In this document: one piece after another, positions 3,691 through 18,913 of the stretch
How the letters are laid out: the number at the start of each line of letters is the position of its first letter
Numbering within the stretch: the stretch's first letter is position 1
Source: Spirochaetota bacterium
GTDB lineage: Bacteria; Spirochaetota; Spirochaetia; Treponematales; UBA12059
Assembly: GCA_029560805.1 (NCBI GenBank)
Contig: JAKQKE010000249.1
Span: 1-36,359, forward strand
Reading direction: 5' to 3'
Length of the DNA: 36,359 nt
Program-made: the position numbers and the translations under genes
The notes under the pieces: generated by a model
Seen by the model: only the letters and a program-made list of their open reading frames with translations
Told to the model about the DNA's origin: nothing
Databases searched by the model: none

Positions 3691-4320
3691 CTAGGAGAAG
3701 TCCCTGCGGCCGGTCACGCAGTAGATGGCTATCTGGGTGCGCTGCTGGAGCCCGAGCTTGTCCAGGATGGACGAGACGTAGTTCTTGATCGTACCCTCGG
3801 ACAGGCCGAGGCTGTCGGCCGCCTGCCGGTTCGAATAGCCCTCCGCTATCAGCCTGACGAGGGAGCGCTCCCGCTCGCTCAAGGCGGATAGGTCGCCTGG
3901 CGCGTTGGCCGAGGCCCGCCTGACGGCCTCGAACACTTCGTCCTGGAAGACCGTGTGCCCCTGATGGACGAGCCTGACCGCTTCCTTGATCTCGTCGCTC
4001 GAGCAGCCTTTGAGTAGATAGCCCGACGCGCCGCTCGCCAGTGCTCCGCGCACGAGCTCGGTCTCCTTGAAGGTGGACAGGAGTAGGACCCTGCACGTGC
4101 CACCGACCGCGATCTCGGCCGCCGCTTCAATGCCGTTCTTCCCGGGCATGCGAATGTCGAGGAGGGCCACGTCGACGGACAGCGAGCGGCAGGCGCGCAC
4201 AGCCTCGAGCCCGTCGGCCACGGAGGCGACCACGGTAAAGCCTTCATCCCGCCCGAAGACTATCTCGAGCGCCTCGCGGATCAGCGGGTCGTCATCGCCT
4301 ATCAGTAGCCGTATCGCCAT
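3691..4320 (-). CDS. NarL/LuxR-family response regulator
   Basis: A 209-residue two-component regulator. The receiver domain (about 1-120) has the acidic pair DDD at 9-11, the phospho-acceptor D55 in LLDIRMPG, a Ser/Thr at 82-83 and K104 in YLLKG. The C-terminal LuxR-type helix-turn-helix (about 145-200) contains the family pattern LSERERSLVRLIAEGYSN and SEGTIKNYVSSILDKLG. Its ATG lies inside the end of the histidine kinase gene (29-bp overlap), so the two are co-translated. It probably controls the exporter genes downstream through the TGACTAAAGTCA dyad. The arrangement resembles LiaSR or YvfTU-type systems guarding an ABC-2 exporter. Confidence 0.92.
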   Translation of the reverse strand: MAIRLLIGDDDPLIREALEIVFGRDEGFTVVASVADGLEAVRACRSLSVDVALLDIRMPGKNGIEAAAEIAVGGTCRVLLLSTFKETELVRGALASGASGYLLKGCSSDEIKEAVRLVHQGHTVFQDEVFEAVRRASANAPGDLSALSERERSLVRLIAEGYSNRQAADSLGLSEGTIKNYVSSILDKLGLQQRTQIAIYCVTGRRDFS

Positions 4321-5476
4321 CGTTCGTCCCTCCTCGCGGGAAGAGCATGATAACCGAGAATCCCCTCGACGAGTCCACCAGCATCGTACCGCCGGCCTCG
4401 CGGGTTCTGGTCTCCATGCCTTCGAGCCCCATGCCCTGCCGGACTACCGCGCCGGTCGAGCCGTCGTCCTTGAACTCGACCTTGTAGAGCCGGTTGAGCG
4501 CCGTCACCGAGCAGGAGAAGAGACTGGCCCGTCCGTGCCTGAGCGTGTTGGTCATAGCCTCGGTCAGGTTGTCGGCGGCGACGCGCCATAGCTCGGCGGG
4601 CATGGCCTCGAGCGGTCCGTCGAGGGAGAGCCTGGTCTCGAGGCCGTGGCGGGAGCGGAAGTCCTCGAGCGCGGCCCGGAGCCGCTGGGCGCCGATCGCC
4701 TCGGCCTCGGGCTTCATCGCGCGCAGGCTCAGGCGTATCGACGATAGGCCGTCCTTGAGGGTGGCCGAAACCCGGTCTACGATGCGCCTGGCCCGTTCGG
4801 GCTCGTCGTCGAACAGGAGCCTGGCCGCGTCCAGTTGCATGATGCCGCCGGTGAGCGTATGACCCAGCTCGTCGTGGAGGCTGCGCGCCAGCCTCTCGCG
4901 CTCGCTGATGGCGGCGAGGCGCTCGGCCTCAGCGCCGACGCGCCTAAGGCCGTCGAGCCGCTCCTGGGAACTGGCCAGCTCGCGCTCGAGCGAGCCGACC
5001 CGGCTACGCAGGCGGCGCTCGCGTATCGAACGGACCGCCGAGTCCGCGGCCCAAGCGCAGGCGACAGCCCAGACGCCGAGGTAGACCGGCGTCAGGCCCA
5101 CCTCGATCAGCGGGGACGGCGCCGCGGCGAGCGCCGCGGCTACGACCCATGGAACGGGGCGCCAACCGTCGTCAGCCGGCGCGGCTAGCGGACCGCGAAG
5201 CGGCGCGCCCATGATGACGGCTGGCCAGGCCAGGACGCAAGCCGGCTCGGCGCGATAGGCGGTAGCGCATAGAGCCAGCTTGGCGGCCGCCAGGACGAGC
5301 CAGACGGCGGAGCGCGGGGCTGCCTGGCGCGCCGTACCGGGCCTCGGCCACGGTCCGGCGGCTACCAGCGTCTGGAACGCCAGGAAGACGGCGAGGGCGG
5401 GCCCGATCGCGTCGGGGCGGCCGATAGCGTACCGGACGAGAATGACCGCCGCGATGATAGCCTCCAGGGCCGGCAC
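4292..5476 (-). CDS. Sensor histidine kinase (HisKA_3 type)
   Basis: The 394-residue kinase is the partner of the adjacent NarL-type regulator. The first ~145 residues hold about five membrane segments and no sizeable extracytoplasmic domain, so it may sense something in or at the membrane. A coiled coil (about 155-195) leads to the HisKA_3 helix with phospho-acceptor H201 in RSLHDELGH. The ATPase domain has an N-box around N310 (ADNLTEAMTN), a G1-like DDGS at 337-340 and GMGLEGM near 348-354. Translation starts at GTG with GGAGG five bases upstream. It is the first gene of the five-gene exporter cluster. Confidence 0.9.
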   Translation of the reverse strand: MPALEAIIAAVILVRYAIGRPDAIGPALAVFLAFQTLVAAGPWPRPGTARQAAPRSAVWLVLAAAKLALCATAYRAEPACVLAWPAVIMGAPLRGPLAAPADDGWRPVPWVVAAALAAAPSPLIEVGLTPVYLGVWAVACAWAADSAVRSIRERRLRSRVGSLERELASSQERLDGLRRVGAEAERLAAISERERLARSLHDELGHTLTGGIMQLDAARLLFDDEPERARRIVDRVSATLKDGLSSIRLSLRAMKPEAEAIGAQRLRAALEDFRSRHGLETRLSLDGPLEAMPAELWRVAADNLTEAMTNTLRHGRASLFSCSVTALNRLYKVEFKDDGSTGAVVRQGMGLEGMETRTREAGGTMLVDSSRGFSVIMLFPRGGTNDGDTATDRR

Positions 5477-16919: not shown

Positions 16920-16948
16920 CGCTCTCGTTCGCATCGCCAGCCGGCGTG

Positions 16949-16957
16949 TGCTATACT
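16949..16957 (+). promoter_or_regulatory. Extended -10 promoter of the cyclase-like gene pair
   Basis: TGCTATACT is a close extended -10 match about 30 bp upstream of the GTG start at 16989. The -35 is poor (TTCGCA region). It lies 30 bp after the beta-glucosidase stop and separates the two functional units. Confidence 0.45.
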
Positions 16958-16988: not shown

Positions 16989-17915
16989 GTGAGATTGAAG
17001 AGCTCTACCATTAGCCTCTGCAGGAAGATACTCTACGAATCGCTGACGACGGACGCCATGGTCCGTTTCGTCAGGCTCGTGGAGCCCGAATACGACCTGC
17101 ATGAACGCTCGGGCATTCCGGTCACAATCCCCATCACGAACCAGATGGCGGCGGAGCGGGTCGTCTCCGATATCCTCGCCGATGGCCGGTTCATCGATTT
17201 CGTCGAGGTCCTCGTCAAGATCGACGCCGAGGGCTATATGGGGCGATCGTACCCGATCAAGGGCCTGGGGCAGATCGTCAAGATCCTCGAACAGGACGGC
17301 TTCGTGCTGGACCGGTCCACGGGGCAGTTTTTCGAGAACACCAATGAGCGCGCCAGCCCCGATTGGGGCCGACTCCACGAGGGCGACGAACGGCAGACCT
17401 CGATACTCAGGCTCGACGTTGTCGACAATTCGGCCCTGGTGCAGCGCAACCGGCCGGAATGCGTCGATAGGGCCTTCGTCGCGCTACGCTCCATCGTCAG
17501 CCGCGCCGTCGTCTCGCGATTCGGGCGCGTATGGTCCTGGGAGGGAGACGGAGCGCTCGCCGCCTTCATGTTAGGCCGGAAGGAACGATCGGCCGTGCTG
17601 GCGGGCATGGAGATCCTGAACGAGCTGTTCTTCTTCAACCGCTCAGGCAATCCGCTCGACTCGCCGCTACGGGTCAGGATAGCCGCCCATTCCGGCCTCG
17701 TTCGCTACAGCGATAGTCTCATGGAACTACTCAAGAACGACGCGGTCAAGGACGCGATACAGATCGAAGCCAGCGCGACGCCGGCCGATACCTTCAGCGC
17801 CTCGTCCAACCTGTTCCTGTCCATCGATCGCACCATCCAGGATCGCTTCGGGCCCGATAGGCGATCCCCCATCGGGGACATCCGCCATTACTCCGTGAAC
17901 CTGGAGAAGGCATGA
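16989..17915 (+). CDS. Class III nucleotide-cyclase-like protein A
   Basis: A 308-residue soluble protein starting at GTG (GGTGG seven bases upstream). The C-terminal part (about 135-300) resembles a class III adenylate/guanylate cyclase domain. LRLDVVDNSAL supplies the first metal Asp (D143), WEGDGALAAF the second (D187), LRVRIAAHSG matches RIGIHTG, and NDAVKDAIQIE (250-260) aligns with the GDAVNxAxRLE helix. In that helix the catalytic Asn and Arg become K254 and Q258, and the substrate-binding Lys before GD is absent. The N-terminal ~120 residues are helical, unassigned and not membrane-bound. The stop overlaps the next gene as ATGA. Enzymatic activity is uncertain. Confidence 0.7.
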   Translation: MRLKSSTISLCRKILYESLTTDAMVRFVRLVEPEYDLHERSGIPVTIPITNQMAAERVVSDILADGRFIDFVEVLVKIDAEGYMGRSYPIKGLGQIVKILEQDGFVLDRSTGQFFENTNERASPDWGRLHEGDERQTSILRLDVVDNSALVQRNRPECVDRAFVALRSIVSRAVVSRFGRVWSWEGDGALAAFMLGRKERSAVLAGMEILNELFFFNRSGNPLDSPLRVRIAAHSGLVRYSDSLMELLKNDAVKDAIQIEASATPADTFSASSNLFLSIDRTIQDRFGPDRRSPIGDIRHYSVNLEKA

Positions 17916-18913
17916 GCGTCTACCTATTCTCGATGGACGCCTCGCCCGCCCTGAGCTTCGCGGACGATCGCTCGGCCAAGGCCGTCGCCGTCCTCGGCCT
18001 GGAAGCGCTCAAGAGCCATCGGCCCGAGCGGCGTGACCTGAGCTACATCGACCTGCGCGGGCTCGACGTAGAAGCCGGGCGTAAGGCCGTACAGACCCTC
18101 CGGCGGCGATGCTCGGGTTCCTCCTGGGGCGTCTTCGATCCTGAAGGGACCGTCGCCGATCCTGCGGCCCTGTTCTTCGCCGGAGCCTCCGACTATATAG
18201 GACCGGCCGTCATCCGGGCCGGCGTCGACGCGGCCAGGTTCAAGGCGGCGCTGGCCTCGACCCGGCGCCGCGATTCCACGGCCGAAGGCGAAGCTGAGGC
18301 CGGTTCGCTCGCCGCGGCCGGTTGCGCCGATGGCGCTCCGGAGGGCGGCTTCGGCGGATGGAAGGCCATACGGCCTGGCTCGTCGTACCCGTTCTGCTTC
18401 GTCTACGCGACCGCATCGTCGCAGGCCAACCTGAAGACCAGCCTCGGGGAAGCCGGTTACGTGGCTTTCCGAGACAGGCTCCGGCACATCATGCAGCAGG
18501 GCCTGGCCGAGGCCGACGCGCTCCTATGGATGGAAACCGACTCGAGCGTGCTCTACCTCGTGCCGCCATATGCGGCGAACGCCTCGGCGGCGATCGAGTT
18601 CTGTCTGCGGACCCTGCTCGGAGCTCCGCTGATCGGCTACGAACGACTATGCCTGCCGTTCCCGCTCGACTTTACCTTCGCTATCCATTCGGGGACTACC
18701 GAATTCGAGCCGCCCGGCAAGACCGGCACCATCGTCTCGGAGGCCGTCAATTTCAGCTACCACCTAGGCGTCAAACGGGCCGAACCCGGTCGAGTGACTA
18801 TATCGGCCGACGCTGCCGGCTTGGCCGTGCCCGGTCGATTCTCAGATCTCTTCGTGCCGGCCGGCTCCTTCGAGGGGCGATCCATCCTCCATTCCAGGCG
18901 CTTCTGGGCCTGA
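17912..18913 (+). CDS. Degenerate class III cyclase-like protein B
   Basis: A 333-residue protein translationally coupled to the preceding gene. Residues 1-115 look like a receiver-type alpha/beta fold without clear phospho-Asp chemistry (SYIDLRGLD, then GVFDPEGTVADPAALFFAGASDYI). A low-complexity Ala/Gly/Glu linker spans about 118-150. Residues 160-333 resemble a class III cyclase domain: FCFVYATAS stands where the metal Asp would be (T167 instead), METDSS replaces the GDG turn (D210), DFTFAIHSG matches RIGIHTG, and SEAVNFSYHL keeps the Asn (N280) but has His at the Arg position. By itself it should not bind two metals; it may be a partner or pseudoenzyme for protein A. Confidence 0.65.
   Translation: MSVYLFSMDASPALSFADDRSAKAVAVLGLEALKSHRPERRDLSYIDLRGLDVEAGRKAVQTLRRRCSGSSWGVFDPEGTVADPAALFFAGASDYIGPAVIRAGVDAARFKAALASTRRRDSTAEGEAEAGSLAAAGCADGAPEGGFGGWKAIRPGSSYPFCFVYATASSQANLKTSLGEAGYVAFRDRLRHIMQQGLAEADALLWMETDSSVLYLVPPYAANASAAIEFCLRTLLGAPLIGYERLCLPFPLDFTFAIHSGTTEFEPPGKTGTIVSEAVNFSYHLGVKRAEPGRVTISADAAGLAVPGRFSDLFVPAGSFEGRSILHSRRFWA

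Follow-up and report, generated by a model that had tools for sequence, protein, structure and literature searches.

In the class III cyclase family, one subunit supplies the metal-binding Asp residues and the other the helix that carries the transition-state Asn and Arg, and heterodimeric members are known in eukaryotes. Mammalian membrane and soluble adenylyl cyclases divide these residues between two homologous domains (C1 and C2), one with the metal Asp and one with the Asn and a basic residue. Soluble guanylyl cyclase (alpha/beta) and the rhodopsin cyclases of chytrids are heterodimers of separately encoded class III domains, the latter including the RGC/NeoR pairing (PMC8815786, PMC12264004). 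In bacterial class III cyclases, the active site lies at a homodimer interface (PMC9552081), and a review describes the fused dimeric form as unknown in bacteria and asks what benefit a linked, asymmetric dimer would bring (PMC9552081). No report of a two-gene bacterial class III heterodimer was found in the literature searched, which covered few subscription journals and is weak evidence on this point.

Here, we describe two coupled genes, A and B, from the genome of a Spirochaetota bacterium, and refer to the whole analyzed stretch of DNA (36,359 nucleotides) as the window. We propose, with a probability of roughly 0.7, that their products form an obligate heterodimer with a composite site that cyclizes a nucleotide; that the two chains share a composite site as such, whether it cyclizes its ligand or binds it only, appears highly probable from the residue patterns described below. 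As in mammalian C1/C2, one active and one degenerate site would be expected for A:B, whereas unlike C1/C2 the two domains are encoded by two coupled genes rather than one fused chain, lack membrane domains, have His in place of the Arg and no substrate Lys, and include a receiver-like domain on one subunit. The guanylyl and rhodopsin cyclase heterodimers resemble A-B in being separately encoded, but they are eukaryotic and differ in sensor domains and residue make-up. Bacterial Ma1120 and CyaC share the fold of the A domain (Z about 22) and the order of its motifs; in contrast to these homodimers, which carry a full residue set per chain, A-B has the set divided, with Arg and Lys replaced. The genes, domains, and signals of the locus are as follows.

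16928–16957 (+): sigma-70-like promoter match (TTCGCA, 18 nt, TATACT, with TG preceding); consensus scan only, 9/12 matches
16989–17915 (+): gene A, putative metal-Asp subunit; ORF of 308 aa with a GTG start
16989–17375 (+): A N-terminal domain, about residues 1–129, mostly helical; no family match, common to single-gene homologs
17379–17912 (+): A class III cyclase-like domain, residues 131–308; sequence matches and the fold of an ortholog model (residues 131–305, Z 20–22)
17912–17915 (+): ATGA stop/start overlap common to A and B
17912–18913 (+): gene B, putative Asn/His subunit; ORF of 333 aa
17912–18226 (+): B N-terminal receiver-derived (pseudo-receiver) domain, about residues 1–105; PF00072 in deep-branch B and alignment
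18359–18910 (+): B class III cyclase-like domain, residues 150–333; A-family profile match to B orthologs and joint alignment

Both ORFs and the ATGA overlap given in the preliminary description of this DNA were recovered, and the GTG start of A is backed by an alignment of 29 orthologs. The promoter match lies just 5′ of A, inside the 70-bp gap that follows a GH1 gene, and gives the pair a promoter-like site of its own by consensus scan. In the window, A and B are flanked on one side by genes for sugar ABC transport and the GH1 glycosidase and on the other by two genes with aldehyde dehydrogenase and amino-acid kinase/PUA domains, their order and sequence suggesting proA and proB. Comparison of neighborhoods across loci revealed no conserved neighbor that would explain the pair, so that A-B seems to stand as a unit by itself. 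A HisKA_3 histidine kinase gene is also present in the window (4292–5476, − strand).

Pfam and NCBIfam searches returned no usable match for either window protein, so A-B pairs are likely annotated as hypothetical; matches to HicA, polyphosphate kinase, and APH were sub-threshold noise. Against solved class III cyclases (3mr7, Ma1120), A matched from residue 133 on, with an E-value of 3e-4 alone and 9e-6 as a family profile, and B matched weakly (E 0.016). Because B orthologs match the A-family profile over their C-terminal half (E down to 3e-30), the C-terminal domains of A and B are homologous by profile evidence. PF00211 gave no match for window A or window B, whereas single-gene homologs of the same family do match (cut-off 21.9 bits; 36 in L113, 22.3 in L114, and 24.1 in L128, with L143 just below it at 20.1). 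In a model of the orthologous locus L050, the A domain has the class III fold, with Z about 20–22 to 4wp8, 5oyh, and 1wc1 and with Ma1120, RhoGC, and CyaC among the matches, and the class III fold of B is indicated by profile homology to A and by a joint two-domain alignment with AC9. The claim that A and B each end in a class III cyclase-like domain was thus borne out by profile homology and joint alignment, and a non-cyclase fold, which the preliminary description had named as a refutation, does not apply to A, whose domain reaches Z 22 against class III cyclases. In the A N-terminal domain, the helix-helix-strand-helix-strand-strand order over residues 51–117 of model me20d4db357d6 is winged-helix-like.

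Catalytic positions were read from a joint alignment of 182 domains (78 from A, 78 from B, and 26 from single-gene homologs, hereafter solos), in which D143, D187, K254, and Q258 of window A align with T167, S211, N280, and H284 of window B.

17415–17417 (+): D143, first metal Asp of A; D in 78/78 A and 26/26 solos, 0/78 B
17547–17549 (+): D187, second metal Asp of A (WEGDG); D in 78/78 A and 26/26 solos
17748–17750 (+): K254, lost-Asn position in A; N in only 4/78 A
17760–17762 (+): Q258, lost Arg/His position in A; joint alignment
18410–18412 (+): T167, lost first metal Asp in B; E, S, Q, A, and others across B, never D
18542–18544 (+): S211, lost second metal Asp in B; still D in 20/78 B, 18 of them deep-branch
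18749–18751 (+): N280, transition-state Asn of B; N in 78/78 B and 26/26 solos
18761–18763 (+): H284 of B, canonical Arg position; H in 78/78 B and 24/26 solos

The alignment agrees with the earlier reading that A keeps both metal Asp and has lost the Asn and Arg (K254, Q258) and that B has lost the first metal Asp (T167) and keeps N280; the loss of the second metal Asp in B (S211) was missing from that reading. Four residues after the Asn position, A proteins usually carry Glu, Gln, Asp, or Lys, with a single case of His, and Asn and His never occur together in A (0/78). The strict complementary pattern holds in 74 of 78 pairs, which are related rather than independent events, and the other four have an A with Asn at the Asn position but without the following His. 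The complementary losses described earlier are conserved in adjacent homologous pairs, with both Asp in every A and Asn/His in every B. The register of the Asn helix was checked against the ordinary cyclases of the window genome, which read GTVVSDAVNVASRL or GTVISDAVNLSSRL at B’s GTIVSEAVNFSYHL, their motif GT(V)(V/I)SDAVN..SRL aligning with it. Solos share GRxWxW.GDG with A and TGxIVSDxVNxxxH with B.

Two canonical residues of the site are missing across the family. The transition-state Arg, expected four residues after the Asn, is absent, with His in its place in B and in nearly all solos as listed above. At the position of the purine-selecting Lys, window A has S183 and window B has M207 (Met, Ile, or Leu in B across the family), and Lys is not a common residue there in A, B, or solos, as the preliminary description had noted for this pair along with the His of B (H284). 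A WxW motif occupies the substrate-Lys position (W182/W184 in window A, W206 in B), and its first Trp is retained in every A, solo, and B of the final alignment; this Trp may shape the base pocket. Most B rows also have Tyr or Phe at the site that precedes the first-Asp position by two residues.

Among 39 related genomes, gene A was found in 24 and gene B in 21; a broad sampling of 393 Spirochaetota genomes gave matches in 96 with the A profile and in 93 with the B profile. Classification by profiles yielded 82 distinct A-B pairs and 26 solos in Spirochaetota. Paired genes are adjacent and always on the same strand, and the B start lies −10 to +9 nt from the A stop in 72 of 82 pairs (−4 in 35 pairs and −1 in five more). 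One further A-B pair has its genes about 1.3 kb apart (L133:3360–6659, + strand). Paired-type A adjoins B at every locus except contig ends and the split pair L133, and no A without B was found among the loci. A single stop separates A and B within a shared frame in 22 pairs, often with an ATG directly after it (including L048, L050, L066, L069, L156–L158, and L160); stop-codon read-through there would yield a fused, C1-C2-like chain.

Residue content and pairing are tightly linked. All 26 solos lack a partner and carry Asp, Asp, and Asn in full, and each paired protein has one half of the set. This distinction divides all loci (Fisher p 3e-25, a value that assumes independent rows although the rows are related), and given that kinship the independent events behind the link may number only one or two. 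Distances between loci correlate for A and B (r 0.92, 78 pairs), as expected of inherited partners, although shared ancestry alone also gives high values. The preliminary description had counted lone homologs of A with a complete catalytic set against a heterodimer. Such homologs do exist, but since they form a separate branch without the losses, they provide the contrast that the heterodimer reading needs rather than a refutation of it.

The N-terminal domain of B points to a response regulator. Among deep-branch B proteins, four of five tested exceed the PF00072 cut-off (E 3e-10 to 6e-16), and the remaining one narrowly misses it (29.7 bits); window B itself has no PF00072 match in the Pfam search, and the B family profile gives weak matches to solved receivers. 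The receiver looks intact, with an acidic pocket, in L138 (second pair), L139, and L140, and most deep-branch B have Glu at the phospho-acceptor position. In the branch that includes the window, the receiver outline alone remains (e.g., GAxDYxGP). Because deep-branch B proteins carry receivers and the window’s branch keeps the outline, B is best read, at the sequence level, as a response regulator-like subunit with a decayed receiver. Deep-branch B thus resembles response regulators with a cyclase output in having a receiver before the cyclase-like domain, but differs from them in that the output domain lacks the metal Asp, and the receiver of the window’s branch is degenerate. Receiver decay is graded across B N-termini (including L138, L139, L140, and L156–L164).

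We infer from these patterns that A and B form a heterodimeric class III nucleotidyl cyclase of Spirochaetota. The cyclase domain of A would give the two metal-binding Asp, and that of B the Asn and His at the transition-state Asn/Arg positions. An A:A dimer would have the metals without Asn/His and a B:B dimer the reverse, so only A:B would give one complete interface site, its second site being dead. Translational coupling would ensure that both chains are made together, and activity may be controlled by the A N-terminal domain and the receiver-like domain of B. The product would most likely be a cyclic nucleotide, even though activity cannot be assumed because His replaces Arg and no purine-selecting Lys is present; the substrate may differ from ATP, or the pair may be non-catalytic, as the preliminary description allowed. 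The 3.3-Mb window genome contains ten other class III cyclase (PF00211) loci and approximately a dozen matches to the cyclic-nucleotide-binding domain PF00027, showing that cyclic-nucleotide signaling exists in this organism.

Structure models were made of natural in-frame A-B loci (L050, L157) as tandems, with the intervening stop read as Gly. The AlphaFold model of L050 has pLDDT 94 and pTM 0.90, and single-domain superposition on sAC, AC9, and AC5 gives an rmsd of about 2. These three structures also align to both domains of the tandem, with an rmsd of about 21–24, so the two domains are not placed as C1/C2, and the co-fold of A with B proposed earlier lacked the expected geometry in this tandem. 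The construct is an unfair test of the interface, in that a single residue joins the A C-terminus to the B receiver; this link may prevent the C1/C2 arrangement, and equally the predicted arrangement may be right. The L157 tandem, with a longer link, has pLDDT 90.6 and pTM 0.72. Modeling confirms the class III fold of the A domain, and the L050 tandem lends no support to an A:B interface. The suggestion of an obligate heterodimer is accordingly supported by the evolutionary pattern, in which the losses are complementary, conserved, and tied to a partner, though not by the geometry of the L050 tandem.

Alternative readings have to be weighed against these data. The geometry of the tandem model would fit a reading in which A and B acted in separate homodimers or with other partners, for which the ten other class III cyclases of the genome provide candidates, and in which their losses reflected relaxed constraint in co-transcribed pseudo-enzymes. 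Relaxed constraint, however, would not retain both Asp in every A and Asn/His in every B, A does not occur without B among the loci, and the two change at matched rates, so that we consider separate partners improbable. Somewhat less improbable, though still unlikely in our view, is a composite A:B site that binds nucleotide and metal without cyclizing, acting as a sensor or switch in which the receiver-like domain would serve as output or input. The His in all B and nearly all solos fits such a role, as do the Met, Ile, or Leu at the Lys position of B and the lack of a conserved purine-selecting pair. Against it, strict retention of Asp/Asp/Asn/His across 78 pairs and 26 solos suggests chemistry beyond binding, and solos still score as PF00211 cyclases.

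The absent purine Lys also raises the question of a cyclic pyrimidine product, like that of Pycsar PycC, possibly in a defense system. PADLOC PycC models match A (E 4e-6) and solos (2e-10) weakly, and the Tyr/Phe of B two residues before the first-Asp position sits at the place of F100 in EaPycC, a base-reading residue two before the metal Asp D102 (PMC11224242). These profile matches may mean no more than common class III ancestry, and window B has no match to the PycC models. Unlike PycC, which has homodimer structures and an adjoining effector gene, the pair has neither an effector gene nor a conserved neighbor beside it, and its inheritance looks vertical, unlike that of a defense island. 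A PycC-like role is therefore very improbable, and we retain the composite-site heterodimeric cyclase as the preferred reading.

In a tree with four canonical cyclases of the window’s genome, the whole A/B/solo family forms one clade (support 99). A larger unrooted tree has B on one side of a branch and A in two groups. Its deep supports are below 80, and how A, B, and solos branch relative to one another changed with sampling. Because canonical cyclases and solos carry Asp, Asp, and Asn in one chain, parsimony indicates that the undivided state is probably the older one. The heterodimer would then probably descend from a single-gene homodimer with a complete set, via duplication and reciprocal loss, and the B copy would have gained a receiver domain of the response-regulator type, whose decay in the window’s branch came later. 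The divided site would have originated in spirochaetes independently of the animal enzymes. The full combination of a two-gene bacterial C1/C2-like cyclase of animal-independent origin, with His for Arg, a product other than cAMP, gating through the receiver-derived domain of the subunit that lacks metal ligands, and undivided single-gene relatives, is put forward more tentatively, as less likely than not.

If the heterodimeric reading is correct, the asymmetric state exists in bacteria as two genes and has been retained across a phylum in which undivided relatives are still present, sometimes in the same genome as the pairs. The step from a homodimer to a one-site heterodimer would thus be directly testable in the A-B family and its solos, and the family-wide His would test how replaceable the catalytic Arg is. 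Among the solos, a 560-aa ORF (L143:3466–5145, − strand) joins a partial SBP_bac_1 ABC solute-binding protein (residues 91–253) to the cyclase, which may be a fusion or an assembly artefact. Five solos (L112 and four others) have a cluster directly upstream on the same strand that is MATE-type efflux-like by eye.
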